A stretch of DNA of 64,000 nucleotides from Arbacia lixula (taxonomy: Eukaryota; Echinodermata; Echinoidea; Arbacioida; Arbaciidae). Both the position numbers and the translations under genes were made by a program. Below the pieces are notes generated by a model that worked only from the letters and a program-made list of their open reading frames with translations, was not told the DNA's origin and did not search any database. Of this stretch, positions 18,048 to 59,100 are shown one piece after another; the first letter of the stretch is position 1, and each line of letters opens with the position of its first letter. The stretch spans positions 8,202,265 through 8,266,264 of the forward strand of contig OZ022593.1 in NCBI GenBank assembly GCA_963669155.1. The letters are read 5' to 3'.

Positions 18048-18278
18048 TACACTGCATCTCAAAGGAATTGGCACGGTAAAGGAAATGGAAGAAAGGGAAG
18101 GAGCCGCAGTTTTAAACCGCGGTATATTTGGTTGATTTCAGCATGAAACATAATGCTTTAACCTAAAATGCATCGTGTTTCATGCTGAACTGGACAAAAT
18201 ATACCTCGGTTCAAAACCGCGGCTCCTTCCTTTTTCCCTTTCCCTTTACCGATACCAATTCCTTTGAGCTGTAGTGTA
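18048..18278. mobile_element. Foldback MITE, CTCAAAGGAATTGG family (copy 1)
   Basis: The ends TACACTGCATCTCAAAGGAA and TTCCTTTGAGCTGTAGTGTA are inverted. Inner arms GCCGCAGTTTTAAACCGCGG, TTTCAGCATGAAACATAATG and their complements make it an almost continuous ~110-bp stem. A second copy is at 48513-48747. Confidence 0.85.
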
Positions 18279-18800
18279 TATCTCCTTTGCATGCAATGAC
18301 AGATATATAACTCAAATGTGTCACATTAATGGCTTGGGTGCTGGATAGTATGGGATCTCTCAATGGGATTTGTGTGTGTTACCATGGTTACTGGTGCCAA
18401 AACGCACATCTGGTACATACAGATTTGATATGCATTTGGATGAAACAGGCTCATGCTTTGAGGCATGTACACGTTTCCATGTCCTTGACACGTTTCGTAC
18501 TCTTTAAAATTGGGCCTAGCTCACATCACCTGTTGACAAGAAGTTTTAAACTAACAATATACAGATTTAAGAAAATAAAAGAAGCAAGTCTGGGTTCACG
18601 CCCTTTAAAGTCTCAATCTCAGGTCTCAAGGGCAGCAATCTCGTCTACAGCTACATCAATTGTCATCAGTGGCGTATTCCCAAAGACAGTGAAGAAAGAA
18701 AAACAGGATATTGGTTCACTCTGAGTTAAACGAAGTCATATAATAATTTTAATACGCACATTATCTCTCTGATCTAAATATGTACAATACTTACAATCAC
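18279..18800. other. Dispersed repeat fragment; unassigned frame
   Basis: The TCTCAATGGGATTTGTGTG block near 18358 resembles sequences near 58968 (TCTATGGGATTTGTGTG) and 25657. A frame at 18329-18724 ends in a Lys/Ser-rich segment after a TACAG; I could not assign it. Confidence 0.4.
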
Positions 18801-31019: not shown

Positions 31020-31163
31020 TCATCTGGTGGTGGCCGAGTAGCGCTGGAGCAACTCGGTGTGACAGGTGTCGCAGACGCGGACCGGCTTGGCCGAGGAAGG
31101 CAGGGGCATCAGGTTGTCTGAGCAGGGCCCGCAGAAGATTCCCCCGCAGTTCCTGCAGTGATG
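31020..31163 (-). CDS. RUFY: RUFY exon 14 (FYVE second half, stop codon)
   Basis: The acceptor is CTCTGCAG|CATC and the stop codon is TGA at 31022-31020. It encodes [20 protein letters not shown] then [20 protein letters not shown] and RYSATTR. With the RRK of exon 13 it completes the basic R(R/K)HHCRxCG PI3P-binding patch, and it supplies CxxC pairs two to four and the VRVC signature. No FYVE residue appears to be missing. The 3' UTR and poly(A) site were not resolved. Confidence 0.96.
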
Positions 31164-34100
31164 CTGCAGAGGAATGAAAAAAAAATGTTTATTTGTGGGT
31201 TTGAAGTTTGACGTTTTGAAGTTTATTTATTATTTCTGACGACCCCTTTCGAGGTATGAGAAATACATAGTAACCTTTACAATACAATTTGTAATATACA
31301 CATATGTTTTCTTCCAGAAAAAGAAAAAAAAAGAAAGAAAAGAAAACAGTTTTGAAATACATGTACATGTAATAGTATTTGCAATATTTACCAGTATTCA
31401 CAGAAGCAATGTATTACATTTCATAACATAGGCCTATAAGAAATTTTGAAACAATTTATTTCTTAAATTTCACCATTATGACTTTAATGAACTTAGCAAG
31501 TTGTGATAAGAGTTGTGATCTCAACAATCGCTGTTTTAAGCAAAACAGCTCCACATTAAAGGAAGTGTTGCCCTTCTGTGGCACAAAAAAAAAATACAAT
31601 TATAAAAATATCACGAGCTGGACACTGACTTTAAGCTGAATTATACTGATGAGTAGATTTTCAGTCAATAGCCTAGAGGTGTGAGATTACAACAGAGCAC
31701 ATCGTTGTTTTCCATACCTTCATTACAAAAGTCTTAAACCTTTGCATGCACCACAGGAATAAAATATCATGTCCTTTTATTGAGCTAGTAAACTTAGTAG
31801 TAATGTCCTTTTAGTTAACTAGTAAACTTAGTAGTAATGCCCTTTTAGTGAACTATTAAACTTCATAGTAATGTCCTTTTAGTAAACTATTAAACTTCAT
31901 AGTAATGTCATTTTAGTGAACTATACTCAGGGGGAAAGAACACACAAGACTTTGATTGCCAGCAGCCCACTGGTATGCCTCCACCGTCCTGTGCAAACAC
32001 TGAAATATTGCCAAAATCTTGAATATTTAGTAAAATTTTCATATTCCTCTAATGCATGGAAAACTTGTTACTTGGCTATGAAATGCAACTCAATTGAGAG
32101 AGGCTTGAGATATATCATCATTGCCTCAAATTTGGTGATATTTGGTCAAATATTTCACAATCTATCACATGAACAGCAACATTTCACAGTTTGACCTTGA
32201 CCTGTGACCTTTCTGAACCACAAAAGAATCACTTACTTGTCATGTCATGTATCATCATCGTACTAAGTTTGATGAAATTCAGTATATTATTTCTCAAGTT
32301 ATCATGTAAAACACTATATCTTAGGATTTGACCCTGACTTTGACATGTGACCTTTGACCAATAATGACCCAAACTATGATCAGTTAAGTGTCCTCTAAAT
32401 ATATCATCATTGTACAAAGTTGGATAAATTTTGATCAATCACTTAAAGAGTTACCATTCAAAAAGGGAAATTTGACCTTGACCTATGACCTTTGGTGATG
32501 ACTGACCTTTCTCCTGGCCACTGAGAAGGCTGCCTCGCACATCATGCAGCTCTTGACGTCCTTGTCATCGGCCCAGACTCGTCCTTCTGCTGACTGAACC
32601 ACCTCCTTCATGTTGTCCATCCTCAGCTGGGACCTGAAGAGATCATTAAAAGAGATCGTAATAACCATCTGTTCATTTATCACCACATGACTACCACATC
32701 CACACACTCACCCAGCTTAGATATCATTTGTTTGTCTTCTCGTCACTTAATGACCGAGTTTGAATGCCACTCATCCTCATGATCATCACTATGACTATCA
32801 CCACCACTCACTAACTGGTGTATGATCCCGTCTCCACTTTTATCCTCATCATTATCACCGTAATCTTCTACATGACTATCACACCCAACTCAATCTCTGT
32901 CAAGGCCTTCTCCTGCTTATGGCACGTCTTTCCAACCTCCACTTTCATCATCATCATCATCATCATTATCAACGTCATCAACATCATCATCATCATCATC
33001 ATTATAGTCAACATTAACACTGTCAGCTCTGACTACTACACCATTTGTTCACTGAGTTTGGATCTCATCTCCACTAGGGCCTTCTCCTACTCTTCTGAAG
33101 CTCCACTTTCAACATCATCACCACTGTCATCAAAACCATCACCATCATCATCATCATCATCATCACCATTATCATCATCACCATTACTGCAACCATCACC
33201 ACTCACACACATAGTTTGGATCCCATCTCTGTCAGGGCCATCTTCTACACTTCCCAAGCTCCACTTTCTTCCTCATCATTCTCATCATTCTCATCATCAT
33301 CACCATTATCACCATGACTACCTCCATCACCATCATCATCACCATGACTACCTCCATCACCATCATCATCCCCATGACTACCTCCATCACCATCATCATC
33401 ACCATGACTACCTCCATCACCATCATTATCACCATGACTACCTCCATCACCATCATCATTGTCACTATCATCATCATCATCACCATAATCATTGTCACTA
33501 TCATCATCATCACCATGTCTACCATCACAACTCACTCGCTGAGTTTGGATCCCATTTCCGTCAGGGCCACCTCCTGTTCTTGACACGTCTTTCCGAGCTC
33601 CTCGTGCCTTCCTGTGAGCGCCACCAGCTCCTTGCGGAGTGTGACGACCTCCGAGACCTCCATCTTGAGCTGAGTCACCAGCGTCTTCTCTTGCTCAATC
33701 TCCCGCTGCAACGTGGCCCGCCACTCTCCCTCAACCTGCAAGTCAGCAGCTAGCTTGGAGCTGTGCATTATGGGAAGAAGAGAAGATGATTTGCTATTTT
33801 AATTCATTCATTACTATATTCATTTATTCATTCACATCTTCAAGCTAAACAATTGTGTGAAAAAGAGGAATATTGTATTTCATTGATAGAACTTCTTCTC
33901 CACATGCATGTTCGTAGCTAGCTTGGAGCTGGGGCATGATGGGAAAGAAGAGTGATGATTATATTCATATTCTTCTGAGCATCATGGGAAAAAGAAAATC
34001 ATTTTATTTAATTCCTGTAACGCCCCTCCGCCTACAGATATGCAGCTAGCTAGGAGCTGTGACATGATGGGGAAAAAGGAAAGGTTAACTTTTGTAATGC

Positions 34101-37100
34101 ATGTCCATTAGAATGGGAAAACGTGAAGATGAATGAATATCTTTATTCATTTATTATTATATATATTCATTTATTCCTTCACATCTTCAAGCTGAAGAAT
34201 TGTGGGGGGAAAAGGGAGTAAAGTATTTCATTTAAAGAACTCCTCTACCACCTTCGGGTCCGCAGCTAGCTTAGAGCTGGGGCATGATGGGAAAGAAGAA
34301 GGAACAATTATTATATTCATATTCCTCAGAAGCATCATGAGAAAAAGAGAATCAATCTATTTAATTCACGTAACGCCCCCTCCGTCCACATGTCCGCAGC
34401 AATCTTGGAGCTGAGGCATTATGGGAAAGACAAAGTTGATTTGATTTATTCAGCCATTTATTCATTTGTTTATTCACATCTCCAAGTTGGAGCCTCATCG
34501 GAAAAGGACAGTCATTTTATTCCATTCTGAAACGCCCTCCCCTCCACTCTCAGTTCCGCAACTATCTTGGAACTGGGGCATGATGGGAAAGAGGAAAGAT
34601 TATTTTATTCAAGTATATGCACATATTTCAACTAATTCATCTTGGGAAATTGTATTTTATTTAAATCATGTAGCACATCCACTGGTGCATGATTGTGAAA
34701 GGGAAAGAAGATTATTTGAATAAAATAATTTCATTTATAAAGCTATTCTTCTACATCAACGTAACATGCACAGGATCACTTTCTCAAACAAAGGGGATAC
34801 AGATAAAATGCAAATAGGCAGAAGGAACAACACAATTTAACATATATCAATAAATGTACAAGGCATAACTATGTTTTGTCATAAACCAGATAACAAAGAG
34901 AAAAAAATATATTGTAAATATCAGTATCAGTATATTTTTGTCCAATAATGATATTATGCAGAAATGGATAATAGGGATAGAAAGATGTATAAGAAGCCAA
35001 GACGCTTGTGAAAAAAATACAACAATCTTGCTATTTGATTTATCTGACAAAAGAAATAATCCTGTCCCAATAATAATAATAATAATTGATGTTAATTATA
35101 GTTTTTAATCATGATAATCATAACAGGAATGGAAGAAAAATACAAGGGCTTTGACTTATAAGGAATTGCGATTTATCTGAGTAACTTGCAAGTCCAATCC
35201 CCGATGTCTAATGTACAGAGTAACAATTGCGATCAATTGCAAGTCAGGTTGCAATCCATCGCAAACCTTTATAAGACAAGGACAAGGACAAGGACACAAA
35301 AATCTTGCATCCACATAATGGCGGAATCAACCAACAGTTGTCACTAGTGATTTATATATATTTACAACTTCACCCCAAAAAGAGTTTAACAAATTGAACA
35401 AACAAGTTCAATCTCAATCCACTAGTCTGAATAAATAAACACAAGTGTCTTGCCTCCAAATAATGTTGTAAGCTCGCTAAAACTGTCAGAAATAATATAT
35501 GCATTTACAACTTCTCCCCAGCATAATTGTTTTAATTGAAAAACAAACGAAGTTCAGTCTCATACCATTTTGCGTCTCTCTCCGCGATCTGCATTCCCAG
35601 CTTGCGCGCCGTTTCGGCCGCGGCTTGCGTTTGCTGCTGAGCCCCCCGAAGTCTGAACTCACGAACGAACGAATGCACAAGGGACGCAAGGGAAGCCACG
35701 CAGGGGGAGGGGCCAAGACAAGAGGATCGCCATGCCAACCAAGGATCGAGCAGCACATCAAGGGCCATACATTTGTGGTGGTGGTGGTGGTGGGAGGTTG
35801 GTAATATGCATATACAGAAAAAATAAGAAAGGGACAAAGGAGAAATCATAAATAAGAAATGATACAGCGATGAATGTGCACACATACAGACACGTAGAAC
35901 ATTGAGAGGCTAAGGGGTAGAAGAGGTAATGATTTAGGGCTGTAATCATGGCGGAACCGTTCTGCAGATATCCTTGAGTGTGGATTTTGTTTAATTTCAA
36001 CGATTTTAGCACATTGGTGTGATTCCTTTGTGGTACCCTGAAATCAAATGAGACTTGGACCCATGTTTATGGCAGAATGGTACCCCATCAATTACAGGGG
36101 TGTTTCACCAAGCTGTTCGTAAGCTACAAACGACTGTACACACGACTGGTGACCCCTTCTTGTCCTAAATGAGATTGGTTCCTGTTTTAACCTAGCGGGA
36201 GTGAGTTTCCAACAATCCTAATCAAATTTTACAAATTATGATTTTTGTATTAAGACGCTTGTCAACAACAAGAATTTTAATTCATGAAGATCAGATTTCA
36301 ACTTTAGCAGATGGGCATCAAAATCACTGATAATCTGATTTAGCAGAGGAAAGGGTAACCAGTCATGCGTAAAGATGTTCTTAGCTTAAGAACAGCTTGG
36401 TGAAACACCTCCTTGGTGTCGTTAGACCTCACCACTTTTCCCCCTTACTTTCAACATAACATCAGTCATTTTCACTGGATTTGTCTTTTTGTACCGGATG
36501 TTTTAATTCATTATTGGCTTTTGGAGAAGGCTACTATTTATCTTTGTCTGTCAGAAAACTTTAAACTGAGCCTGCATGCACAGCCAGCAAAATCTGTGAA
36601 TAAGACTAGCCATTGAATAAGAGCTGCCCAATGTTATTTCAGACTGACACATACTAGGCACTCACTGACAGTCAGCTCAATTTAGCCCTCAGCACAGCCT
36701 AGACCAATTATTGAAGAGATAACATGCCCTTCAGTATAAATAGTCTCAATTTGCAGACCTTGTGCCTCAACAGCCTGACAAATAGTGTAAGCCTCTCACT
36801 CCCATAGACAAAAAAATAGTGTTGCAATCGGCATGTGACTAGCATTGTTTGGTACTTTGAGGGTTAAATTCCTTCCAAAAAAATAGTGCACATACGTTTT
36901 CAATTATTGTAACTTACCATCAATGGTAACTATCATGAGGGCAGCACTAGGTACAATAATGAGAGCTCAATGGATGTTGCCATGGTAGTTACCATAGATG
37001 GTACAATAATTAAAAACCTAACATGGCTCAGGGCCATAGCTCAACAGCTATTGCAACTCACTTATGATTGTAACTTCGGCAAAACACCTACAATGCTCAG

Positions 37101-40100
37101 CCCTCATTGCAATTGTTGATAGTTACAATTATGATTACAGATCTTTATACAACATGCACAACATCATTTTTCCAAACATCACGCCTTGTGTGTATACGCC
37201 ATGTCTGGCAAAATTGGTAGCTCCAGCAAATGACTGATGCAAACATTCTTTGGTAACTATCGTCATGACAACACCGATCTACTGCATTACGATTATGTCA
37301 CAAGTGTCACAAAATTCAACACAAATGTAACATCGACCAAACACACTTTCCAAGACTTTATACATGATTTACTGCTGACTCCATTGGTCATGAACATGCC
37401 AGGAAAGAAACGAGAACCAACATCGCAAACTTGGACTGACGCCAAATCCTTGTAATGGGTGTGACTCAATTACCGTGTATCCTGGTTTGGAAGGTCTACA
37501 TACACAAGATAAGTTTGCTTGCTTACATATTGCATCCAACCTGCTTGTTTTTATCTCGGGCTTTTTTATCCCTACTCGTGCCTCTAGTGGATTATTCCAT
37601 CATTATTAATACACGCAACTCCATGAGAGGCTCGTTTCATCTGGCACACAACTGGTTGGTGGTTTGTCCCATCAAAGCGTGTATAATGGAACACAATGAT
37701 GTTGCCATCGCAAACATTACATCATGACACATCTAGATAACAGTGCCGGTTCAAATCCTCCTGGTTCCAAGCTTTTTTGTCCGACTTGTTTTTCATTCAT
37801 TTACAGGACGGAGCATGCTATCCTTACTAGTACTGGGTGTGAATATTAAGCTTGCTTCGTCGCTAACCGGTAAGCAATCGCTTGCAGGTTCAAATCCTCC
37901 TGATTGTAAGATTTTCGTACGACTTGTTTTTCATTCATTTACAGGACGAAGCAAGCTATCCTTACTAGTACTGGGTGTGATTATTAAGCGTGCTTCATCG
38001 CTGACCGGTAAGCAGTAGCTTGTAGGTTCAAATTCTCCTGATTCCAAGATTTTTGTAAGACTTGTTTTTCATTCATTTATAGGATGGAGCACGCTATCTT
38101 TTTACTACTGGGTGTTTGCCTAAAAAAAATTTTCAAGATAAATAACTCCTGTTTTATACCCGCATCATTGTACACCAAAAAAGTCCATCCTGAAGTCTTC
38201 TGACTTCTTTTTTCATTAATTTACAGGATGGAACACACTATCCTTACTACTGGGTGTATCCCTAATTTGTTTTTCTTTACTGAAATGACCCCACAAAGCA
38301 CTTTCACTAAAATCTAATCGTATCACAGTTCCACATAGGAAGGAGGGAGTCACATTTGAAGTATAATTAGGGTAGTACAGTCATGTAAAAGTGATGGATC
38401 CACTTTACATCCAGGAGGGGAAAATGGGTTCCAGGTAGGGGGTGATTTTGTGAATGAGCTTGACCCAGTACCGATATCATGAGTGGGCACGGAACACTAC
38501 CCAGGGAGTGGAGATAGTGCACATATTTGAGGGCGTGATATGATCCTATATCGCACGACAAGAGACATACCCTTATAAAATCACATTTTTACATATCCTA
38601 ATGTACACGTGTCTTTTCTAAACCACCTTGGAGCGTGAAATGTTTACATCCCTAAGCAGCCTCATCACATGATACATGATTCACAACACCATGGAGAATG
38701 CTCCAACACCTGACCTGAACTCCGTCTAAAAACAATCATCACCTGTTTAAAATATATCAATTTAATTGTATAATTTGATGTTTTCTATTCTTGTTTCATA
38801 ACACTGAGTGATGCAAGGCCATTAGCTTGAAAAGAGCTTAAATCTTCACAGTTTACTTGACTAACCTCTCCTCCAGCTGTTTGATTGTCTCAACCATTTG
38901 GTTAGTCTTCTCCTCCAGTCTTTCCACCAAATCCGATTTGTGACGCATGGTCTCTTCATTTCCCTATTGAATAAGAATAGTAACATAAGACGAAAATTAC
39001 TTTAATGCTATCTTTCTGCAGGGGTTGTCGAAAGTCAGGTACTGGTCCTGAAAAAAAATGTTGGGTGTAATACTTTGTGAAGAGTTTCATTCACGTCAAC
39101 TGTACAAAACAACAAATAGAAGCACTATTCAAAGCTATCCTCATAAAAACATACCATGCTCTATACTTATGTCCATACAATCATAATATGAACATCAGAA
39201 ATATTGACAAAACATACACACATATGTAAATGTTTACCTACATGTATTAAATGGAACAATAGCAGCTCAAGATCATCAGGAGAGACAAAAGTTGAAAGGG
39301 AACCATAATGTTTCTGCATTTATGTTCTTCCTCATGCAGAATTTCCACAAGCCTGGGCCATGTTGCATATATATATTTTCAATTATATTCCACATACTAA
39401 GAATGTTGCTATATGATTGGTCAAGAGTTGATCACGTGATGAAGCGTAGTTTTGCCCATCTGATCACCTGAGAAGTAAAGTTCATTACACTCTAGGTGAT
39501 AGTACTTTTCGGTTTTGCTGATCTCTTCACTCCTCACAGTCCTAACGCGTGATCAATGTTTTGAGTATGCGCGAAATAAAAGTGCGTTACACTCGGATTA
39601 TCAATTGTACCTCGGCACAGATGACGCCGTGGTGCGCAGTAATTATAAATTTGTGGTTATAGCGCGCTGCGCCGGGCGTGGGTACGTATGTACACGTACG
39701 TACACGTACACGTAGCCTATGTACAGTTCATGTTTACCATAGTCATGTTTCAATCAAAATGGCCCATTAATCAGCACATCAGCAACATGATTCAGGTAAG
39801 TGAACTTCATCCTGTACTATACCGTAATGTTGTTCGTAGCCCCCTCCCCCCTCCGATAACCAGAACATGGTCTAACATTAGATTTGACGATAGGCCTAAC
39901 GTTTGATTCTCGGTAGCCGCACCGACCCGAACGTTTTATTTCCAATGGCTTGGGCAAATCAACGGAAATTCAAGTTGCGCCTCGGCCGCAACACCACGAG
40001 AGTTCCCCTGGGGCGCTCAATGATTTTCCGCTTAAACGCAAAAAAGCAGCTGGAAAGGAATGTATCGTATACTGCAACAAATTTTGTCACCAGGTAGAGA

Positions 40101-43100
40101 GCATGCGCAGTAGTGCCAAGGGAGAAACCAAAAAGTATGATCATGTAGCCGCACCGACCCGAACGCTTTTGTACGTTAAATTGTCATTTTTAAGATACAT
40201 AGTTGGTTTCAGATGTGGAATATAAGGGAAATAATCAACTTTTGGTTTCAGATATTGAGATGAACTATCACTTTCTCGGCGATCTGAATGTATACGCTAA
40301 CTTTCCTCAGCTACGCTTCGGAAAGATAGCTACATCCAGATCGCCTCGGAAGTAACAGTTCGTCCCATCACCTTCACCAATGTTGATTATTTGATTACTA
40401 TTGTAACTAACAATGCATGGTAACTGCCATAGCATCAGCAGCAAAACTGAAAGCCCATTGGCTGCTACCATGGTAGTTACCATCAAGGGTAAATTACAAC
40501 AGTCCACAATATATATGCAACAGGGTCCTGATCACAAGGAATGTAGTGTATAAACCAATGATTTCACATACCGGTACAGATATTTTCACGGATGATGATT
40601 GCGATCGTCACCCTGGCAACTTCCTGCCAATATACATTTAACATTTCACACCAGCTCCTTACTGCATTAGTAAACACGACAACACAGATGAAACATACCG
40701 TTCTTTCACTGGTGTGTCCAACTACTTCAAAAAAGCATGCACAGCAAAACTAGTGTGAATACCTTTGAGCCGCATAATATATACTAAACTATGAAGCAAT
40801 ATTTTCGCTTGTTAGATTTGCAACCACACACTTATTTGCAAACATTTGTGAAAATAAAACCCTCACACAAACAGCTCAATTCAGTACCTGGATCTTCTTG
40901 TACAGATCGATGTTGATGGATTTGATGTCTTCCAGCTGTTTCCGTAGCGATATGATGGTGTCCTGCTTCTCGTGGATGTCTTTCTCCAGGAGGCGCATGG
41001 CCATCTCCATCTCCATCTTGAGGGAGATCTGGAGCTGCAGCTCCTGCTCTACGTCCTGCAGGAAGAAGGGGAGGAGCAGGAGAAAAAACATAATACGGGG
41101 GCTTAAAGACAGCTAGTCCCTTTTTCAGATCACCACAAAACCATCGAAACATTGGCAAAACATATAGAGAAGTGTTAGCAAGCTGGATATTCATAATTTG
41201 AAACTGATACGTAGTGTAAAATTCAAATAATGCACGTAAACAACATCTGATTAATAGTCTTTACCTCAGGCTCTCAGCAGTTTGTGTTGAAATATCTGCT
41301 TTATTGATTAATCAGTTTATTAAATTATAAAACGCATTATGAAAAAAAAATTGTTCTACATAAGGAGTCATTTCCAAATTTTGGTAATTACTCATGGATA
41401 TCACACATGCATAATAACCACATAGATACTGTAACAAAGACTAATACTTTTTTCGGAGTACGAAAAAAGTCGGTTTGAAATTTAACGGCTGAAATTTTTA
41501 CATACACAGAAAGCTTCAACATGCTATATTCTTAGAAATGGTCTTGAATCACACTTTCTTCAATTTACGATCGTGATAAACGATTTCAAATTTTAAGCTT
41601 GCAAAAGGGACGGACAATCTTTAATTGCTCTGAGTGAGCCCCCGTCTAATTCTGAGCAGGTATCCTCAGGCCCACATAAAAAATGTGTTGATGTTTACCC
41701 ATTGATCAGGGTTTTCTGTCTTTGTGAACCCTGGACCATGTTGCATGTGTTTTCCATTATTGTAACATAAAATCAATGGTAACTGTCATGGCAACAGCCA
41801 ATGAGCTCTTAGCATTGTTCCGGTTGCCATGGTAGATACTATTGATGGTAAGTTACAATAATTGGAAACCAATATGCAACATGACCCAGGTCTATTAAAG
41901 GTGTCAAAATTTGCCATTGAACTGCAGGAACCAAAGGAATGTGGCTTTATTGGGTTTTATAAGGTTGAATTTTTTTTATAGCCTGTCGTCATTTATTGTC
42001 TGAAAAACAGATTGTGCTTAATATCTGAGTGGAAAAAAGCCAGAAAAGCATGGTTTAAGTTGAGAGCGAGAGCAATGGTGGAACGTTGAAGAAAGTTTTA
42101 CACATGGGCAAGATCGATTGCTCTTGGGACGTATACTTCCGGTAAGAGTTTGGTACGTATTCAATTCATGCAACAGCGCACAGAATCTGTAGTTTCGACC
42201 CTCGTAACCCTCGTAATATTAAAATGGAAGGTTTGTTACATAGACAAAGGACTTGAAAAAAATACCACCAATCACTCAAAGCGATGTTTTTGCCTACCTC
42301 CATATTGATTGTGGATGGACTAGAGAAAGAATGAAACGACACAAGCAAGACGATGGCTATAGGATGTTCGTGAACCGGAAGTTCATATCCCAAGAATTAA
42401 CGGTAAAAAAATTAGAGCGCCACACGCGTTCAGATTCGGAGAGTTATATGCGAAAGGGAGAATTGTGAGCATTTTTCCTCACAGGTTTATCCCTCCCTCG
42501 AATAGGATATTAGATGGAGGTTCCAAGTACAGCAGAGCCACACTCTATACACGTTAACGCTTTGTGCGTTTACCCATAAACCCCCTATGTGTTGCATTAT
42601 TTTAGCCTGGTCAAGGTACTCCAATGAAAGGGTCTCATTCACATTCCTGCCATGAGTCATAAACTCTTCACAATGAACCTGACCATGGTATTGTTTGTGA
42701 GGAGGTTTTTTTTTTATTTTCTCCTCTCCTTTTTTTCAACGAACTCACTCTCTGGGTCTGCTGGAGGATGTCTTAATTTTTTTTGTTTACTTGTAAAGAT
42801 ACAATAACTCTCCAACATAGTGGTTTGGAAGAGAATGTATCAAGGAACCCCATCCGTAATAGGTCTGCGATCAATCGATTGGTATACACTAACTCACGTA
42901 GCACATAGGCACACTTCGGTGCATGCAATTGTTCGCAAAAAATGGGACAAAGCGGACAAGGGACATCTATAGGGAAATACGTAATTGTGCAAAAATGCGA
43001 ACGAAACACATTTACGGGTGTGCAAAAACGAAACACATGAAGAGGTTAAGACTCCAGGGTTACTCGTACTTGCATTCAACTCTTTGTTGCATGCTGTCAT

Positions 43101-45022
43101 GCTGTGACGGGTTGAATAGCCATCAGCCTTGTGTGTGGTGTTAAATGTCCATGCGAAGGTTCTGTTTCGGGGCTTTGTTAATGATTTTAATTCATAGGGT
43201 GTATTGATTCAAATTGACAAGTATTTCTTGTAGGTGAGTAGCACCCTAGTGAAAATGTTGTTGGTGATCTGTGCCACAAAAATTAACGCACAAAAATTAA
43301 AATTTTACAGTAAGGGATAGCGACCCTGGGCCCCAGTATAATTCTAAGTACGTGAGGGCTATGTTCACCATGTTCTTAGGAAATGTGTTGCGATTATTAA
43401 GTTGATGCAAAAAAGAGCCCCTATAGATTGCAAAAGAACTACTTTGAAAGTGACATTCCCCTCACAATCTGTAATGTACAGCATTTTTTACATGAACACT
43501 GGTCTTTCAGTATTGTATTGTATGTAAAGGGTTACTAAATTAGAAAAATAAGTTCCCACTAATCTATGTAAAATTATCAACTAAAAACAAATTTCACATT
43601 CCTTTGCCGCAATAAAGTCTCATTTTGACGAAAATTTGAAAAAACGCACGCTTCCAGTGACGTATGAGAAGTCAAAATGCCATAAATGCCAATGGCGTAA
43701 ATAAAATGATTTATTCACGCCATTCAAACAATACATTACCAATGGGAGCCCCAAAGCTTGTCTGAGGTTTGTCTGAGTAGCAACAACTAATAGATTCAAA
43801 GTGCATTCCATCCATTGAATATGAATGACAAGATACAGGTGAATGCAATAACGCGTTACTACACTGTTAGGGGGAAAGTTGTGAATACATTATGAAAATG
43901 GTCTATTGTTGACTTTCGTACAATCTACGGAATTTTGACTTCTCATACGTCACTGGAGGCGTGCGTTTTTTTTCAAATTTTTGTCAAAATGAGACTTTAT
44001 CACGGCAAACGAATGTAAAATTCGTTTTTAGTTGATAATTTTACATAGATTAGTGGGAACTTATTTCTCTAATTTAGTAACCCTATAAGTCTTGTCTGGA
44101 CATGTTTCTGAGTTGTTTCCTGTCAGAAGCTGATCTCAAGGGAGGGAGTACATGCTTATGTATTCTTCAAGAGAGACATTTCTAACAGAATGTAACAATA
44201 GCATATCTCTCCTGGTGGACAATGGTGCTTTGCATACATACATAATGTGAGCTTGGTGGTAACCATGGCTACATGACTTACTAGTCTCATCTGAGTCTCC
44301 TGCTGTAGTTTCTGCTTGGCTTCGCTGTACATCTCATTCAGCCCTGTTCTCGACGTGTTGTAGGTCTCCCGCTCAACGTCCATGTCAGCTCTAACCAACT
44401 GTAGATACAAATTCATATTTAACGAACAATAATCAAATAATTACTCATTGCAGATAAATGGCTACTGTTTTCTTTTGTCTCGCAATGAAAGGTAAACGGA
44501 ATTGAAAAAATCACGACGTTTCGTGCGCCGCTGCAACACTTCGTCAAGTGTGATACAAAATTGTAGTAAATAGGGGTTTAAATACCCATGGTCAGTGCAG
44601 TGCACTAACTGAAATCTGCTCATAAATGGTCCAAATTCATATTTAACAAACAATAAGTAGTAGTATTATACTTAGTACTTAGTATTGGACCATTTATGAG
44701 CATTTATGAGCATTTATGATCTTTTCAATTCCGTTTACCTTACATTGAGAGACAACTAATTATCAGTAGCCAACAATCAAATACTAATAATAATCAGCTT
44801 TTTATAGCACTTTCATAGTCCAAAATACCACCTAAAGCACTTATTTATTACCCTGGCTGTAGCCAAGCAGACAAGAATGTAGCACTTGAAGCTCGTTGAT
44901 TGAAACTGATCAGGAATACTATATTTCTGCCAGGTACCCATTTACTACACCTAGGTTAAGAGGGACAAACATGAGCAAAACATCTCATCCCAGGGATTCC
45001 CCCCTGCCTGGGCTCAAACCCA

Positions 45023-45070
<48 letters not shown>

Positions 45071-45662
45071 GAGTCAAGAGCTCCCATTACTATACCACAG
45101 TGCCTTTCCTGCAGTGAAACCTGTACATAAAGATAGCTTAAGAAGGACAAGAAGTGTGATCTCTATGAGATGGCGGTCTCTGTGTACAGGTTACTTGAGT
45201 ACAGGTTTTCAATGAGAAACATGTTTTTTTAAATGCAACTACATACGTGATCTTTATATACAGTTAAACCTGCTTTATATATTAAATTCACAGATTCAAT
45301 TGAATATCTTTTTAGTTTGAATATGTACTTAAAGACAGGGAATCCATGTTGCAAGCCCAAAATATAGACTTACTAAAAAAACAACAGCGAACAGAAGAAA
45401 ATATAGCTTCATAACTTCCCTTAGAAAATTCTAGTTTATGAACTGAACCTTGATTTGAAAAGTATTAATTGTTTCATTCCACCTACATTCATTGCTAGGT
45501 CATCCATAATCAAAGTCTAGTATCTGCAGAACATTGTCTTGACAATGGAATCATATTTAGAGTAGAAGAAGACACAAAAATTGAATTAAAATTGAATTGA
45601 ATTTAATTGAAATTTAATTCTTAACTCCAACATTCGTCTGCATCTATCTATTTACCTATCTC

Positions 45663-45725
<63 letters not shown>

Positions 45726-48700
45726 CTCCATACCTCTAGTTTTCTATCTGTGTGCTGCTTGAGCATGTTGTTCTCTGATTGCAGGATTTCATTCTCTGCT
45801 TGGATGCTCAGGATGTTGTTGTTGGCCATAGCGAGCTGATGAGGTGATTAGAACAAAAATATGCATTAACCCTCTCAGTACTAAAGGTGCATGACTTGAG
45901 TAATAAGTCAACAGGGTTTTCCTGGCTTGGTTCTGAGAGGAGAAACTGACTTAAGTTTCCGCAGATCGTAATAATCCTGTTTTCGTAGTATATTCAAAAC
46001 TTTCTCTCAAAGTGCGTAGTCACAAGATATTTCACTTACCTATATCTTGTACTTCAGTGTCAATGGGTGGAGCATACTCTGAATCGATTAGTTGTTGCCA
46101 GTCAGACAAACCTCAAACAAGCCAGCTTTGGGGTTACCGTTAGCAACGTATTGTTTGAACAACATGGATGAAATATGCAAACCTACCAATCAGAGCCTAG
46201 AGTTTGTACTGTACTGAAAATTTTCTCCATTTAAACTTTGATAACGGCTTCAGCCTCTTTTGTGAATTTGGTTGAATGAGTGGAAAGTACTTGTATTCTT
46301 CACAGAGTTGACTTGACTACTAATGTGAGCCTGGAGATCACAGATCTGCCAAGTCAGGTGGTTTAAACCTAGGTTAAATCTAACCCCCTTTTATATAAGG
46401 AATCAATAAGAATCTGGAGACAGCTGATCTGTTACATCATGCAATTTAAACCTAGGTTAAATTTAACTTCCCCCTTTAAAATTTTGAGCCAAGGAGTGGG
46501 GGGAAAGGTATGTGTCCCTTAATGGAGGTGTTGGAGTCCTCTCAACTCATACCGCGAAAATGGAGACCGCTCATCTGAAACATCAGGCAATTCAAACCTA
46601 GGTTAAATTTAACTGCAGAAACTGGAGACCGCTCATCTACGACATCAGGATATTTGAGCTTAGGTTAACTCTACCCCCCCCCCCCCTTTTTAAAATTTGA
46701 GTCAAGGAGTGATGATGAAACATACCTGTCCCTTCATGGAGGTGTTGGAATCCTCTAGAGTTTTAACACGAGACTGGAGACCGCTGATCTGCGACGTCAG
46801 ATGACGGTTGTGTTCCTCTAGGTAGTTCTTCTGATCCAACAACGTTGCCAGGTTAACATCAGTGGGTGCTCTACATACATGCGTCAATAAATAAACATGT
46901 AGCAAAATAGAGGTCTCATGTACTAGAGCGCCAGACCACACTCCCATTTAAACATATACATCTATCCAGGGAGAGAGAGTATGCTGAAAAAAAAGTGTTT
47001 AATATAGTCTTACATTTATATGCTTTCAATGCTTCCAGATGACCCCTTTTGTTAATTTCTCTAAAAAGGAATGAAATCTTGAATTACACATGTTCATCAA
47101 AACTTTATCATATATGAATACATTTTCAAAACTTCCCAGCAGGGAGTCAATCATTAAAACATAGTGCTTTGATGTGACACAGTATAAAGCATGTTGCAAC
47201 ACCTGTCCAATCCCAAGGAATTAATTTAGCATCATGGCAGCCAGTAAGGTGTACTCATTCAGCTAATTATAAACATCAGTGGTAATTACCATGGTAACAG
47301 GCGCAATAATGAAATCTCATTGGCTGTTGTTATAGTATTTCCATTGATGGTAAGTTACAATAATTGAAAACCTATATACAACATGGCCCAGGAGTGTGGA
47401 TGAAGTATTTTTCTGAAGGACACAAGTGCCATAGGTTGATTCGAAACTGGGATCTCAAGATCTTCAGTCACACTGATATTCTGTCAGGGCCATTATTTCC
47501 ATTTCTATTCTCAGTGTCCCACCCCTTTATTCTTACGTCGGTGCTCCAGACGTCCCTTCTACAGGCTTGTCCAGGTAGTTCCCGTCCTTGAAGTACATGC
47601 TGAAGTCGATGACGGAAGGCGCCGAGTCCAGGTCGTCGCCTTTCAGGCAAAAGTTGCAGTCGATGGCGTTGAGTCCGACAAGGAGACCAGCGATCACCAT
47701 GGCTTCCTCCTCCATGATCAGGGCTGTCGGCTCGTACCATTCACTGGATCAAATCAAATTGAAAACATTTCACTTCATCAGGAAGAATTTATGTTAGCTT
47801 ATCACTTACTGAATCATGCGCAATTCAAATCTTCACTTCATCAGGAAGAATTCATGCACATAACAGAGCTGAAAGCTCATACCATTTACTGAATCAAATC
47901 AAAATAATTTCACTTCATCAGGAAGAATTTATGTTAGCTTATCACATACTGAATCATGCGCAATTACAAATTCAAATCTTTTCACTTCATCAGGAAGAAT
48001 TCATGTACATAACAGAGCTGAAAGCTCATACCATTCACTGAATCAAATCAAATCAAAATAATTTCACTTCATCAGGAAGAATTGATGTACATTACAAAGC
48101 TGTTGGCTTGTACCATTCTCTGAATCAAATGAAATCACATTTAAATTATTTCAATTCATCAGGAAGAATTCATGTACACTACAGAGCTGTCAACTTGTAC
48201 CTTTCACTGTTAATCAAATCAAATGACATTAAATACATAACACTACTTCAGGAAAACTTACATTTTGTCAAAGAATATTTGATATAGAGTACTTACAGTC
48301 GATTGTGAGCTAAAATAATGACAAAGGTACAAATCATTCAAACCAGTCTATAGTTTTGTACATAATGCAAACATTATACAGCATTTCGTTCGATAAGTTC
48401 TAATACAGTATCTTCTTTAAATTTTCTGTGGTTTTCTTTTTTTTTTTCTTTTTGACCTGCAAAAGGGATACTCTGTCTTTGATGCAATGTATGTTTGCAA
48501 AGGTTTCAAGTGTACACTCCAGCTCAAGGGCATTGGCATAGGGAAAGGGAAAGGGAAGAATGGAAAGGATCCGAAGTTTTAAACCGCGGTATATTTTGTT
48601 CAGCTCAGCATGAAACATAATGCATTTTAGGCTAAAGCATCGTGTTTCATGCTGAACTAGACAAAATATACTGCGGTTTAAAACTGCGGCTCCTTTCCTG

Positions 48701-51700
48701 TCTTCCCTGTCCCATTCCCTATGCCAATTCCTTTGAGCTGTAGTGTACATCACATTGAGTAACAGCTTGTCTGGCATGCACAGAGTTAAAGGGAACATGA
48801 AGTCAGCATTCATAGGTAATCAGCATTCGCTGGCCATATTGCGGGTGTGCCGTGCAATGTGCGCATATACTGTGCGCATATACATGTACATCATGTGACA
48901 TTGTCCTCTGATCGAATAGATAAAGGTCACATGCCTGCGATCATTTCCCTACGGGCCTATTTGTCAAAAAAGAGTAATAACAAAATCATGAGAAAATAAT
49001 GTTATAAATGAGGCTATCCATACTTTTGTAACAAGTACTGCATCAAATTATTTTTTTGTCATCAAAATTTAAAGGGCAGCCTCTGGCTTGATATTTTTGT
49101 TGAAAGCCTTAAACTGAGTCTTCAAGCCAATTGTTTCAAAATATCAGGTATAAGACTTAAAAAATGCCACGTAAATCTCAGAAGGGTCATATTTTTGACC
49201 AACTGTGGCACTGCTGTGGACTAATAATGGTCACTCTTTATGTTCATATGAGCAAAGTTGCTCAAAGTAGAGTGATTTGGTGGGCTCCAATTTCTTGTGG
49301 GCTCAACCTCGCTCGTTCACTGTGCATGGTCTATACTCCTCCCTTTCAGTCCTACAGGCAATAAACCATGTTGTAACTTATATCACGGCTTGTTAATTAG
49401 AGAATTAACCTTGAGAGTGCTAGTTTATTTGCTGCTCTACAGGAATAGTGTGTATTCCTTGTGCAATGATGTATCAATGGTGTAAAAAGAGTTAAACACA
49501 GATTGTCCCTTTTTTAGGTCAAATGTCAAACATAAACATCAATAGTTCTTCACTTTTCCTGAAAATTTTCATGGAGCTGTGACTGTGAGATTTCACATAT
49601 GTTATCGTTAAGGTATACTGCTGATTCCTGCCAAGTTTTATGACTTAAGCAAACGGGACACCCTGTCTTTAATACTGAAAACATGTATTTCTCACCCCAG
49701 TAGATCTTTGGCTTCGATGATTGCCTTGAAGTAATCGGCCAGCTTCTTCTGCATCATGGCTAGTCTCAGCCAAGCCCTGCCTCTGCCTAGACTGGACCTA
49801 CATGGATGGAAAGATGAATGGAGGGATGGAGGGATGGAGGGATGGAGGGAGGGAGGGAGGGATGGAGGGAGGGATGGATGGGCGAATGGATTAATGGGTG
49901 GATGGATGGATGGATGGAGGGATGGAGGGAGGGAGGGAGGGATGGATGGGCGAATGGATGAATGGGTGGATGGATGGATGGGTGAATGGATGAATGGGTG
50001 GATGGATGGATGGATGGATGGATGGATGGATGGATGGGTGGGTGGATGGATGGATGGATGGATGGAGGGAGGGATGGATGGAAGGAGGGATGGATGGATG
50101 GATGAATGGATAAATAGAGTGAAAATGTGGCCAACTGCAAATTGCATTGTATTTCTGTAAAAGCTGCCAGATTTGAACCAAAAAACTCATTAAATTAGCA
50201 ATAATCTCCATATCATGACAAGATCATGACATCTACATCATCTGTCTTTATACATAGGATGCGCAGTTAGACACACATGCACATAACTCTGGAGTGGAAA
50301 AGGTGGCCAACTGCAAATTGCAATGTACTTTGTTGCTGTATGCAAGATTTGAACCCCAAAATTCATTAAATTAAAAGTAGATTATGCATATAACGACAAG
50401 ATAATGGACAGATACATCATCTGACTTTGTAATGACTTTGTGCATAGTTCGAGACACGTGCACAGACTGGCAAGTGGTGAAATGATCAACCTTCTGAGGA
50501 ATATATTTCAAGCTCATGAAAAATTTAATCACAGAGTGACATGCTTATAACTAATCATAAATGAGCATTCAATCGCAGGGGGCAGCTTGTGATGATATTA
50601 AAATTATCATTAAGTCAAGGTTAATGCGTCAAACGTGATAACAAACTTCACTTCCAATTAAAGTCTAATCTTGGTACGTGGAATGCATGGTGCGAAGGAA
50701 TGTATTACTTAGTAAATCGAGGCCTGCTTTACTGTAGCAACCATTTGCATAAAAAGACCACCTGTCTATAAAGGCCGTATTTGTTTCATCTCTAGAACAA
50801 TGCTTTTTGTCTACATCTGGGCCAAGTTGCATATACGTTTTCAATCATTGTAACTAAACATCAATGGTAGCTACCCTGGTAACAGGAGCAATAATGAGAG
50901 CTAATTGGCTGTTGCCATGGTAGTTTCCATTGTTGGTAAGTTACAATAATTGACATCATATGCAATTTGGCCCTGTACCATATCAAAATAACTTGTGCAT
51001 AAAGGCCACATGCTTATAAAGGCCACATTTCTGGTCTCCCTTGAATGGTCTTTCCAGACACGTCTCACCGTAATATTATGCACCTTCATCAACTAAGATG
51101 AATGTCTGCATTTCCCTCTGTACTAGTATCGGAATGAGAGTTAACTTTCTCAGTCCCATAGGCACACACATGAGTAAACAAACCAATGGGGTTTTAGGAG
51201 CTTGGTACCGATAGGGTTAATAATGAACAACATGAGAGATTCCTTGATGGAAGGGGCTTGCATGTAGAGGATACTTTAAGAGAACTTTCGTCCTACACCA
51301 TGTGTATTTTTGGAAACAACCCTTGGGTTTTTTCTCTTTAGCTGAAATACATCACCAGCTAACTCTTTCAATGCTATCGGCACATAATTGTGTAAACTCC
51401 AATCCTTTTTTTCTGGTTTGGTACTGCGAGGGTTTAGACCGTTCTGTTGCCCCTGTGCTCCTTAAGAACAATTCTTAATCAAGCATTCATTGGGTTTACA
51501 GGAATTTAATTACCTTCCAAAACTGAAAATATTTAAAATTGGCTATATAAAATACTTACTTAATTCCTGGAAGATTTCTGACACTATCAATGATCTCAGC
51601 AAAGTCTGGAAGGGTCTTTTCGACTGACTCGACGGCATTCCAGAAAGACCTCTTCTTCTCCAGGAATGTCTTCTTTCCTAAAAACACAAAGATTCAGCTC

Positions 51701-53511
51701 AACTTTTAAAAAAATACATTGTCACTCATCACAAAAACAATGTATGTGACATTTGTTATACACGAAACACAAATAATCTTCATACCCCTCTAGCACAAAC
51801 CTGTACAACAAAAAGAAGTATTTTTTATTTTGGACCAATACTTTGGAATGACTTACCATTATCAATGAAGCAATCCAATAGTGCAAATTATTTCAAATTC
51901 TTACTAAAATGGTACCTACCTTTGAAAAACATTCTTTACATTCTCCTTTATTCCCATTAATAAAATTGTAACCCCCTTTCTCCTTTTCCTCTTCTTTCCT
52001 TTCTCTTTACCAAGGTATATTTTGTATGCTTGTATTTCTTTGTATGTTTTGTTAAGTTATGTAGTTAACTGTGACTTGTGTGTTTATATGTGTAATGGGA
52101 CCATACCAACAAGCCTGTGTGCTTATTTTGGTTCCCCCACAAACTTGAAAATTTACAAGATTATGCAGTTTTTTACATCTTGTTTTTTAAAGGAATAAAC
52201 TGAATTGAATTGAATTGATTACAGCAGGCACATTCTTCATACTGCATAGGGGAAAGTCATCCAATACTGCACCACACAGCCACATTCCAAATGTTTTACA
52301 GTCATGTCCGTACGTTCGGTCTAGTGTGCTAGTGTATGAAACCAGAGGCAGACGTGACTGCAAAAATATCTGAATATTGTTGCGTGGTGCATGATACGAG
52401 AACTTTCACCTATATTTTGAAGTGGTATGGAAAAGTACATAGGCCAAAAAAGACAGACCATGTGCCTGGATAAAACGGTACAATACTAGTATTCTCAATC
52501 CAGAGACATACAGAGAACACGTGTACATTACAAAGAAAAGACCGAAAATTGATATAAACACAATATATACAAAGAAGACAAACATACATTGGGCATCATC
52601 TTAAAAGATACTTCATATCATGATTACTCAACGGTTAAACCATACATTTGTCATCCATCAACAAAGAATGTGTTCAATAAAAATTAAAGTCACCGATATA
52701 GATGTGAAAACAAAGAAAAAAATATTTTTTTTGTGCTTTTTTTATCAAGAAATATACACCACTGTTCAAGAGTACTAGGCCCGCATTCGGTGGATTAACT
52801 TTGACTGCATACTAAAAGTACACTTACTTTATGGGTGCAAAATAAATCATCTGATGCGGTCACAAAATCATATGTTTGTCTGACTTACTAAGGGTTAATC
52901 AAATGGCAAGAGAGAACTTTTCCCTCACCTTTGACTCCATGATTCATGACATGCTCCATGACAACGAAGAACTGCTGCAGCGGGACATACTCGTCGTCAA
53001 GGATACGGGCCTCTTCCATGGCAGATTCGATCAGAGTTTTGATGCACAGCTTGGCCACGTTGAGGAGGTTGGCTCTCTCGACGAGGACCGGGTTCTTGAT
53101 GACACTATCATCTGCAAGAACAAAATGTATATTTAGTAGATTGATGAGGGTGATGATGATGATGTGATGAGAAGGAGGAGGAGGAGGAGGAGGAGGAGGA
53201 TAAGAAAGATAAAAAATAACATTTAGGAGGTTGGCTCTCTCCACGAGGACCGGGTTCTTGATGACACTATCATCTGCAAGAACAAAATGTATATTTAGTA
53301 GATTGATGAGGGTGATGATGATGATGTGATGAGAAGGAGGAGGAGGAGGAGGAGGAGGAGGATAAGAAAGATAAAAAATAACATTTAGGAGGTTGGCTCT
53401 CTCGACGAGGACCGGGTTCTTGATGACACTACACTGTATCATCTGCAAGAACAAAATGCATATTTAGTAGATTGATGAGGGTGATGATGATGAGGAGGAG
53501 GATGATGAGGG

Positions 53512-53554
<43 letters not shown>

Positions 53555-53658
53555 AAGAAAGATAATAATGACATTAAGGAGGTTGGCTTTCTCGACGATG
53601 CTATCATTTGCAAGAACAGAATGCATAGAGTAGATTAAATGGTGATGATGATGATGGC

Positions 53659-53698
<40 letters not shown>

Positions 53699-53924
53699 TT
53701 GGTGATGTTGATGATGATGATAATGATGATGATGATTATGATGTGGATAAGAAAGATAACAATAACATTAAAGAGGTTGGCTCTCTCGACGAGGACCGGG
53801 TTCTTTATGATGCTATCATCTGCAAGAACAAAATACATATTTAGTACATTGATGAGGGTGATGATGATGATGATGATGATGATGAGGAGGAGGAGGAGGA
53901 GGAGGAGGAGGAGGAGGAGGATGT

Positions 53925-53963
<39 letters not shown>

Positions 53964-54234
53964 GGATGATGAGGATGATGAGGATGATGAGGATGATGAG
54001 GATGATGATGATGCGGATGATGATAAGAAAGATAACAATAACATTAAGGAGGTTGGACGAGGACGAGGACCAGGTTCTTTATGATGATATCATCTGCAAG
54101 AACAGGATGCATATAGTGGATTAAATGGTGATGATGATGATAAGGAAGATAACAATAACATTGAAGAGGTTGGTTCTCTCAATGAGGACCAGGTTAATAA
54201 TACTAGAACAGAATGCATACAGTAGATTAAATGG

Positions 54235-54298
<64 letters not shown>

Positions 54299-56138
54299 AA
54301 TAACAATGATGATAATAAGAGATAAAGCTAGAACATTGTGGAGGTTGACTCTTTCTTGACGAGGACCATGTTCTTTATGATGCTATCATTTCCAAGAACA
54401 AAATATGAAATAGTTTGAAGATGATGATAATGACAATAATGATACTAATGATGAGCATGACTGGGTTCTTTACGGTGCTATAATCTGCAAGAACAAAATA
54501 TGACACAGCTTGAAGATGACGATAATGATAATAATGATGAGCACAACATGTTTGATGTTTACCAGCTTACACGTCCATATAAAATTTAAATGAAATCCTT
54601 GGATAAATATATGGGAGGTATCAAGAGGCATCAGGATATATGTCATACATGTACGGAATCCTTTCCTTCCTTTATATTTCTCCTTTCTTTCTTTGTATTC
54701 CTATTCCTCCTTCTTTTCCTCTTCCCATTCCATTATCTTTCCTCTCCACTTCTTAATATTCATATTATTCATACTTTTACTCTTTCTCCGATACATATCT
54801 TTCTCCTCCACTTCTCTATCTTCGTATCCATCCTCCCATTCTCCTCTTCATCCTTCTCTTCCATTCTCTACATGTTTATCACAAGACTAACAACAAATTC
54901 AGTTATTAAAAACGAAAGCAAAACACATCATTCTGATTGTTGTGCCAATTTAAGGAGCAAAAGAGGCACATAAACATTTCCAGTGTGTTGACACTTTAAT
55001 GATTTACTGAGCATTTCACCTTTATTTCACATTTATGATTACAAACTTCATAAATGTCCCTAAAAGACAACAATAGGTTGATTTTGTTTGTGCAGCAATA
55101 TATACTAACATATCTTCGTTCATTAAATGCATCTGTTATGATGTGTTAAATTTGATATTATAGTAACAAACGCATTTGTGGTGGCTAGTCCCAAATGGAA
55201 ACAAGCTGATATATATATCAGGCAGTTCACAGCTTGCTATCTGCTTAAGATGTGAAGCCATAATCTCTTTACCAAATGTTTATTTTGATGTTAACGTTCA
55301 TGTTTTTAGTTTCAAAATATATCTATGCCATATAATCAAGCTTTTAGGATTATACATGTATTATCATACCTAAATAAACACTTTTTATAACTATATACAG
55401 AGTGTTTCTAGTGCACTATACTGTAGTGAAGGGTAGACAATTTAACATTTTGATTGGGGCAATTATTATAAGCAGTGTGATTTCAGTTCATGCTGTACAA
55501 CAATCGCACTGACACCACTCCTGTACATAATTAAGTCATTATGCATGGTAGAGTAAGGATTAAGGTATTTAAATATTGCTGCAGGCATCCAAGGCAAATA
55601 TGCAAAGCACATGAATCCTGTACATTCTCCCTCAATTGGAAATATTTGGGGGAATTTAGCGATTATGATGATATTTGTCAAACATATGGAAGCAGAGATA
55701 AGTTCCTGCTCGAACCACACACCCGCCCTATAGAGCTGCCATACACGTGCACATTTTATGCGCACATTAAGCATACAGGGAAGGAGGAGTATACAGCATG
55801 CATGTTTGATGGAGAGTTCCCCCCCTAGTTGGGCCCCATGCTGCTGATAGTGTGTGGCGACAGCTTGAACCCGGGAGTGTCAAGGGGCGCTTTTGATGTC
55901 TATTTGGGTCCTCTGACGAGAGTTAGGAGCAGGAAAAAGCACCCCCAAAAAGCCCAGGGACTGTTTATGTTACACGTGTGTTGAATGCCATCCTCTTGTA
56001 CATTTTGGCAGCATTTTGAATGTTTGTAAATTTTTCTATCCCTCATGCCTTTTTCTTAGTAATTTATTTTCTTTTTCTCTTTACACCTTTCTTTCTCTTT
56101 CTGCCTTTCTATCTATTTCTCTCTCCCTCTCTCTCTCA

Positions 56139-56179
<41 letters not shown>

Positions 56180-59100
56180 TCTATCCTATTTCTCTCCCAT
56201 TCTCTTTATCTCCCTTCACAATTCTGTCTCTTTCTATTGCTCCCCCCCCCAACCCTTCATCTCCTTTCCTTCTTCTCTCCTTTTTCCTTCCTCAGTCCAT
56301 ATCTCTGGCCGTATCGCTCTTTCTATCTCAATCTTGCTCTACTTCTGTAACTCCCTCTTTTCCCCTCTCTCTTGCTCTCTCATTACTCTTTCTATCTTAT
56401 CTCTTTCGATCCCTACCTTCTACCTTTCACTTTCTTCTTTCTTTCTTGTTTTGTTCTTCTTCCCCTCTCTCTCTTTCGTTCTTTTACTAACCTCTCCAAA
56501 ACATCTTATATTAACTACATGAAGTTCTAATTTGCATAGGATAGCTTATAACAAACCAGGAAAATAAGTTGGACAGGCATCAGGAGCCAATGACAATAAA
56601 TTATTCCCTTTACAATCCATTTATCCATTTATCCATTTATCCATATATTTTACATAATGTAGTGGCCTATGAACCAGCTTATCTCATTTGAGACATATAT
56701 CTCTAATGAGATTAGATTCTTCTAAGCTGTGAAGCATGCTTCAAAATTTAGATGAACTGAATACATTATTTTTTTCCTCTAACAATGTATGAGTCTCTTC
56801 CAAGTAAAAAAAAAAATGGGAGACAGCATGGGATAAAATTATTTCAATTATGCTCCAAAACCAATTCCACTTCAAACTGATAAGCTTTTATTAAGTGAAC
56901 ACTGAAACCTGCATGTGCAGGCTACAACATGAGCAAAATGTCAAAAGCCAATAGACCATTTTCGTTATGTATGCAAATTTTATCCACGTCGTTACAGTAC
57001 TATGCATTACAATGCATTAAGAATGGTAACCCCAAAGCTTGTCCGAGATTTGTCCGAGCAGCAACAACTATTAGATTAAGAGTGTGTTACATCTATTGAG
57101 AGTGAATCATGAAGTACAGGTGAATGTAACAACGCGTCACTAGACAATTAGGGGGGAAGTTGTGAATACATTATGAAAATGGCTCAATCCACTTCAAACT
57201 GCTCAGCCTAATGGAAAACCTGTACATAAAGACCACTCAATGAAAACATGAGATGCATTCTCTCTACGCAGGTGATCTGAATGCATTATTTGTTACTTTG
57301 ATATAGGTTTTAATGAGGAGCATTACTATAGGGGAACACAAGTGAGGAGTTCATAAACAGATGGAGGCTTGAGCAGGTTTTACTTGAGTAATGAGTGATT
57401 GAATCACAAATCCTCAAAATGTTTGGGCCAAACATTTTGAGGATTTAATCATTAATCACTCCATATGTGGATCACTTGAGGGCAAATAACTTTCAGCAAG
57501 CTTCTAAAATAGACAATACATGAATTTAAGACCATTGGCAAGAAGGTTGCTAACAATTACATTTTGAAGGCTTTTTTGCCTTCCCAGTACAGTATACGCC
57601 CTTTAACATTAGTCAAGTATTGATGCATGAACCTAGTCAGAAGGGACTAGCCCCTATATCTATGGGCAAATACAGACATTTTTTTTTTATTACAATGGAA
57701 TTCATTCCTGTAGTGCATATTGAGGAAGAGAAACAGAGATAGAGAGACAGATACTGTCAGGGAGAGGGAGACAGAGGGAGTATGCATGTAACATGTACTG
57801 TAAATAGAAATTATCTGAAGTAAGGAAAATGTGGAGAGTGACACAGAGACAGAGACAGAGTGACAGAGAGAAAAAGAGAGGCAGATACAGACAGAGAGAG
57901 GGAGACATAGGGGGTATGTGTGTAACATGCACTGGAAATAAAAATTATCTTAGGTAAGGATAATGAGAGCGACAGAGAGACAGAAACAGAAGGACACAGA
58001 AGGGACGTCTTCATTAACCCGATGTGGGCAAAATAGTGAGCTTGTTCCGATCGGGTTAGCTAGACAGATCACGAAATAGCAAGCTATTTGCATCTTCATT
58101 AGCCAGATCAGGCAAAATAGCGAGCTATTTGGTCGAGAAAATTTCCCAAGAAGTCTTGGGCTAGATGGAGCTAGCTCGAGCTAGTTCGAAGAGTCTTCAT
58201 TAGCCCGAAAATTTTCTGACCCCAGCACACATCAGCGCGCACGAGGCATTGTTTACGTTAGGTTTTTATACATGCATGAATGCGAGCTCACAACCGAAGC
58301 CACGCGGTTGTGGCCTATTCCCGCCGCACACTACGCTTATGCGAACATCGGGATAATTTATGCATCACGAGTTTCGAGCTTACGTATCGAGTTTCGAGCT
58401 AATGAACACGCGATTGCAACTTCAGGCTAGTTCCCCGGATCAGCAAAATAGCTCGCTATTTCGTCTGATTGGGCTCATGAAGACGCACCTATAGAGAGAG
58501 ATGGGAGGTATGAGTGTAACGTGTACCTAAAGTAAAATCATCTAAGGCAAGGGTAATGAGATATGACTTGCACAACATAATGAAAGATTCAAAGCCTCTT
58601 TCATGCACAACAAACAGTGTGTGAAAAGCAATTTCCTCTCCCAACTACTCCGTCTAATCCAGCTCTGCAAACTGCCAACCAAACACTGTTGACCGTTCAT
58701 ATTCTTGAAAGGGTACTCGACCAAACTACACGTAACTTAAAGGTAAATGTATCCCTTTTGCAGAATTTCTCACCATATTTGGTAAAAGCATTACATGAAT
58801 CAGACATATAACATGTGAGTCCAGTTTGTGATGCATGAAAATTAACAGTGACACTGAATTTCTATAATAATGCCTGAAAAAAAAACTACTTTGTAGCTAT
58901 TATCTCAGTCTCAGCTCTTCTTTTCCACATACAAATTAAACCTATGTGAGGCACACAAATTGCATCTCTATGGGATTTGTGTGTGTTACTGGTGAAAAAA
59001 TGCACACATAAAGTTAAGGTTGGGGTTGAGAGAGACATCTTCCACATCTGATCATACCTAATGAAAAATCGGACAAAACAATTACCTTTACACATTGTTG

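Follow-up and report, generated by a model that had tools for sequence, protein, structure and literature searches.

Tandem arrays at the exon edges of a RUFY-like gene are real. They begin inside the exon and extend into the adjoining intron, and they occur at five edges belonging to four exons: exons 2 and 5 carry one at the acceptor, exon 6 at the donor and exon 12 at both. The reading preferred here, held at a probability of roughly 0.85, is that these arrays are 'mirages', minisatellites founded by a tandem duplication straddling an exon/intron edge. The DNA letters show the anatomy of the arrays, the signature of one constrained junction beside neutral copies, and the fact that such arrays recur at other exons of the genome; the kind of mutation that founded them, and regular splicing at the junction left intact, are what we infer.

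The sequence examined is a 64-kb window (positions 8202265-8266264) within an assembly of 606,990,701 bases and 590 contigs. Exons 2 to 14 of the gene (31027..53111, minus strand) are predicted, the thirteen having been placed from open frame, splice motifs and codon usage; ordered Pfam RUN and FYVE matches are the ground on which we infer that they join. Exon 1 was not found in the window. The RUN domain lies in exons 4 and 5 (Pfam E 5.2e-7 and 5.3e-9, respectively) and the FYVE finger in exon 14 (E 9.4e-15, above the Pfam curated cut-off), with a further FYVE match in exon 13 (E 1.1e-4) that is under that cut-off. A coiled coil is predicted between the RUN and FYVE parts, exons 6 and 12 being labelled as such, and the structure matches of exon 5 are rap2 interacting protein x and RUFY3. 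A RUN domain and a C-terminal FYVE finger in one predicted gene agree with a RUFY identity. After boundary refinement AG or GT is intact at all 25 functional internal edges. Rfam and tRNA scans returned nothing of use.

Arrays touching exons were located by self-comparison and Tandem Repeats Finder, and each edge was scored by aligning a 100-base probe centred on it to 1.5 kb on each side, with microsatellites masked; with the stop end added to the 25 splice edges, there were 26 probe points. Scores are 154 for the exon 2 acceptor, 94.5 for the exon 5 acceptor, 93 for the exon 6 donor (91 with refined boundaries), and 71 and 74 for the exon 12 acceptor and donor, against a maximum of 42.5 among shuffled probes (n=200). 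The exon 8 acceptor scores 46, or 52 in another scoring, and may carry one old copy (44365..44672, minus strand; 85% over about 78 bases), a weak case. The remaining 20 probe points score 35 or less (36.5 after boundary refinement), and refinement by up to 9 bases followed by rescoring returns the identical five edges. A preliminary description of this DNA held that exons 2, 5, 6 and 12 carry edge-straddling tandem copies, on the acceptor side of exons 2, 5 and 12 and the donor side of exon 6. Scores of 71 to 154, far above chance, bear this out on every side named; the claim was slightly understated, the exon 12 donor being hit as well, by an array (about 32679-33536) falling outside the interval 33536..54510 that had been given. 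Self-comparison, Tandem Repeats Finder and array-to-exon alignment, the checks proposed at that time, find that the arrays touch the exons and that the matches are better than random.

All five arrays and their exons are on the minus strand. Exon 2 (52929..53111), the start of the RUN region, is placed from open frame and splice motifs with AG and GT edges present; its acceptor array (53057..54539) has 8 copies of a unit that joins the end of the intron to at most about 55 bases of the exon, with TCC/TCA microsatellite between copies, and its youngest stretch has a 162-base period at 96% identity (Tandem Repeats Finder). Similarity to the exon ends after some 27 to 32 bases in the most distal copy and after some 55 in the others, so at least two exon-side breakpoints were used in this array. 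Exon 5 (47537..47743), the RUN domain end, whose edges were checked, has an acceptor array (47719..48270) of 6 copies; four of them include between 25 and 31 bases of the exon, and the other two are short. Exon 6 (46726..46870), placed from open frame and splice motifs, has a donor array (46254..46800) of 4 decayed copies, 2 of them without the donor stretch. Exon 12 (33536..33760), placed in the same way, is flanked on both sides: the acceptor array (33713..34639) comprises 5 copies in which an exon part is clear and 3 short ones, chosen by eye for alignment, and the donor array (32679..33611) comprises 6 copies, 5 from the copy listing and one chosen by eye, with ATG/GAT microsatellite between. 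Acceptor-like sites recognised by motif, the functional site counted, number 8 at exon 2, 7 at exon 5 and 8 at exon 12.

Outside the window, a RUN search of the assembly finds seven places, two of which (L003 and L007) are the window gene and one of which (L006) is a copy inside the array of another, L001; the RUN model recognises L006 as a separate match, with one stop. The four other RUN exons (L001, L002, L004 and L005) form a sample not chosen for arrays, and 2 of their 8 edges score high, the other six scoring 24 to 31; eight edges are too few to give a rate. The L001 acceptor scores 196, with a clean array (L001 1558-2300, minus strand) of 4 copies that are 81 to 93% identical and include about 103 exon bases. 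The L005 acceptor scores 85.5, with 2 copies (L005 1017-1497; 90 and 78%) that include a C-rich tract as well as 14 bases of the exon.

The copies can be compared with the functional exon by codon position. Two doubtful microsatellite rows aside, the comparison covers 29 copies from six arrays (L001 plus the five of the window), and mismatches number 70/492, 56/500 and 127/500 at positions 1, 2 and 3. The ratio of position 3 to positions 1 and 2 is 2.0, with a bootstrap over arrays of 1.7 to 2.3 that is rough because the copies are not independent; it is 1.91 with the two doubtful rows included (31 copies), and per array it runs from 1.4 (exon 6) to 2.4 (L001). A fixed exon altering solely at silent sites, compared with freely drifting copies, is expected to give a ratio of about 2, whereas translated copies should give a far higher excess at position 3. 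The signature is as expected for one constrained junction accompanied by freely decaying copies. Together with the intact AG and GT at the functional edges, it upholds the earlier proposal that the functional junction is preserved while copies decay; that the units straddle exon edges, also proposed, is upheld as well.

The same ratio, lacking the strong excess expected of translation, bears on whether the copies are in use, as alternative acceptors, decoys or exon extensions under selection, which is considered improbable. Acceptor AG is retained in 5/8 copies at exon 2, 6/6 at exon 5 and 7/8 at exon 12, and, judged by eye, in 3/4 at L001 and 2/2 at L005. The total of 23/28 might suggest use, but it matches drift, 21 being predicted at 13% change per base. 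At exon 12 the AG bases are kept in 15 of 16 cases compared with about 60% of other columns, a point in favour of use, although alignment is also best in the columns around the AG. Among the seven distal acceptor-like sites of exon 2 found by motif, the nearest would add 162 in-frame, stop-free bases and so could serve as an extension; against this, the second lies 331 bases off and is out of frame, though stop-free, and the remaining five hold 1 to 7 stops. In the amphioxus mirages, as far as the available part of that report goes, splicing is undisturbed (PMC3087553). Selected decoys in particular were set low after the AG/GT retention and codon-position tests. Donor GT is kept in just 3/10 copies (0/4 at exon 6 and 3/6 at exon 12), which counts against the mirage reading itself.

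Identity to the exon declines with distance at exon 2 (Spearman -0.95, n 8), exon 5 (-1, n 4) and exon 6 (-1, n 4), from identities typed by hand with rows lacking an exon part or purely microsatellite excluded. At exon 12 the gradient is absent (+0.5 for the acceptor and -0.05 for the donor, n 5 each), a second point against mirages. The gradient of decay away from the exon that had been described therefore holds at three exons and fails on both sides of the fourth. An assembly artefact, in the form of merged haplotypes or repeat stutter, could be invoked for the nearly identical exon 2 units beside the exon (162-base period, 96%), which in this one assembly suggest recent change at most. However, all other copies in the window are 8 to 26% different and carry indels, and the seven arrays, spread over three loci, resemble one another in behaviour, so that such an artefact is very improbable.

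A separate matter is whether exon edges are preferred sites. Tandem copies are dense here: 18% of positions in the gene body, and 10% of those in the window, have a copy nearby at a score of 60 or more. The exon map was shifted circularly and the edges hit were counted at four score thresholds. At threshold 60 the mean is 4.7 edges hit within the gene (P 0.54; 0.35 to 0.66 across thresholds) and 2.7 within the window (P 0.17; 0.11 to 0.25). With exons instead of edges as the unit of counting, P is 0.33 to 0.58 for the gene and 0.07 to 0.17 for the window. Given the density of arrays, five edges hit is unremarkable and not clearly above chance. The argument that four such exons in one gene exceed chance thus stands for each array taken singly and does not clearly stand for the number of edges. 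The shift test accepts an edge wherever it lies among the units of an array, whereas for an edge array it is enough that the founder straddle the edge. A model of randomly placed founder units expects 1.2 straddling arrays, compared with 5 of 8 seen (P 0.002). The eight arrays and their rough unit lengths were chosen by hand, with microsatellites and loose pairs (35340/35490, 30600/30810 and 32260) left out, and the gene had been flagged on account of its arrays, which makes this P too small.

These tests bear on two accounts of how the arrays arise. Dense minisatellite growth without preference, in which duplications occur anywhere in introns and some include an edge by chance, is somewhat favoured; a duplication that includes an edge would be tolerated because one whole junction remains. 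It draws on the array density just given and on five arrays that exist away from edges (31769-31924, 37744-38257, 50117-50464, 57735-58000 and 62642-63349), while the founder model, with its excess at edges, goes against it. A junction-anchored process, in which edges are preferred for tandem duplication and the functional junction repeatedly serves as the template for new copies, is a doubtful alternative. The founder count speaks for it, as do the 2 of 8 edges at RUN exons not selected for arrays and the decay gradient at exons 2, 5 and 6. The circular shifts speak against it, as do the flagging of the gene and the manual choice of arrays, and the count is inflated because a conserved partner keeps exon copies recognisable longer. 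As for the recurrent process suggested by the preliminary description, the five edges, the two further edges at RUN exons and the at least two breakpoints at exon 2 speak for recurrence; its anchoring to junctions does not follow, since shifted maps hit nearly the same number of edges.

The units of the edge-free arrays are about 102 bases (62642-63349), 138 (37744-38257), 134 (57735-58000) and 175 (50117-50464). At the exon 2 array, L001 and L005 many units are spaced by 138 to 169 bases, near that of the amphioxus globin mirages (150-160) and of the nucleosome; spacing is similar in edge-free arrays and may mean nothing. Some arrays touching no recognised edge could flank unrecognised exons, e.g. 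exon 1. The window also holds dispersed repeats at 18046-18282, 48511-48751, 41730-41890, 47270-47390 and 50817-50973, several of them self-complementary and with a MITE-like look.

On the mirage reading, the founding duplication would leave one whole junction joined to the rest of the exon, and splicing could still use that junction. Surplus copies would end up in the intron, decay freely there, and multiply through slippage or unequal exchange, aided by the microsatellite within units. The youngest copy at exons 2, 5 and 6 is the one closest to the exon, as if the functional end were budding new copies.

Arrays of this kind are already known, and those of the RUFY-like gene, judged by their layout, belong with the 'mirages' of amphioxus: tandem units contain the intron/exon boundary (at five window edges and two at other RUN exons), and one intact junction stands next to decayed or non-coding copies. 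The portion available of the amphioxus report (PMC3087553) describes mirages in Adh3 and in the globins BflGb6 and BflGb9, likewise crossing the boundary on the acceptor or donor side, with AG/GT surviving in many copies though not in every one, RT-PCR suggesting regular splicing, and somatic instability at Adh3. In lancelet PGBD5, 60 and 108 bp repeats are reported at splice sites, with Adh and troponin C cited alongside, in the part of that paper available (PMC3902484). Unit lengths of 150-160 and 157 bp in the amphioxus globins compare with about 162 at exon 2 here; copies here appear older, differing by up to 26%, whereas BflGb6 units are 81-100% identical, according to the same partial text (PMC3087553). 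Unlike in the amphioxus accounts, as far as their available text goes, a single gene here has five affected edges, and at least two further exons have arrays too; and while those accounts include data on splicing and instability, the present arrays are known from one assembly's sequence.

More distant relatives, again taken from partial text, include the Rogers model of intron gain as applied to potato RdRp (PMC4974935), which likewise involves intragenic tandem duplication copying splice signals but places a new intron inside coding sequence, whereas here existing introns lengthen; no new exon or intron was seen in the RUFY-like gene arrays. Internal tandem repeats of human paralogs (PMC2812944) are likewise intragenic minisatellite expansions able to alter gene structure, though apparently not defined by a unit straddling a splice junction. 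A literature search of titles and abstract starts, leaving most subscription journals uncovered, named no mirage outside amphioxus. Plasmodiophora (PMC6823432), considered as such a case, was set aside, as the accessible text concerns mitochondrial group II introns instead.

It is possible, though doubtful, that edges are preferred seeds of duplication genome-wide, with perhaps a fifth of edges bearing arrays through repeated budding from the functional junction. The two-to-one codon-position signature offers a simple test separating dead from used copies. In the amphioxus texts available, mirages are described one gene at a time; the five of the present gene and the two among four other RUN exons suggest that genome-wide counting is feasible. 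Such counts could address intron lengthening, the splice-site clutter tolerated by splicing, and exon edges as mutational hotspots. If the host is not a cephalochordate, intron growth through mirages would be more widespread than has been known.
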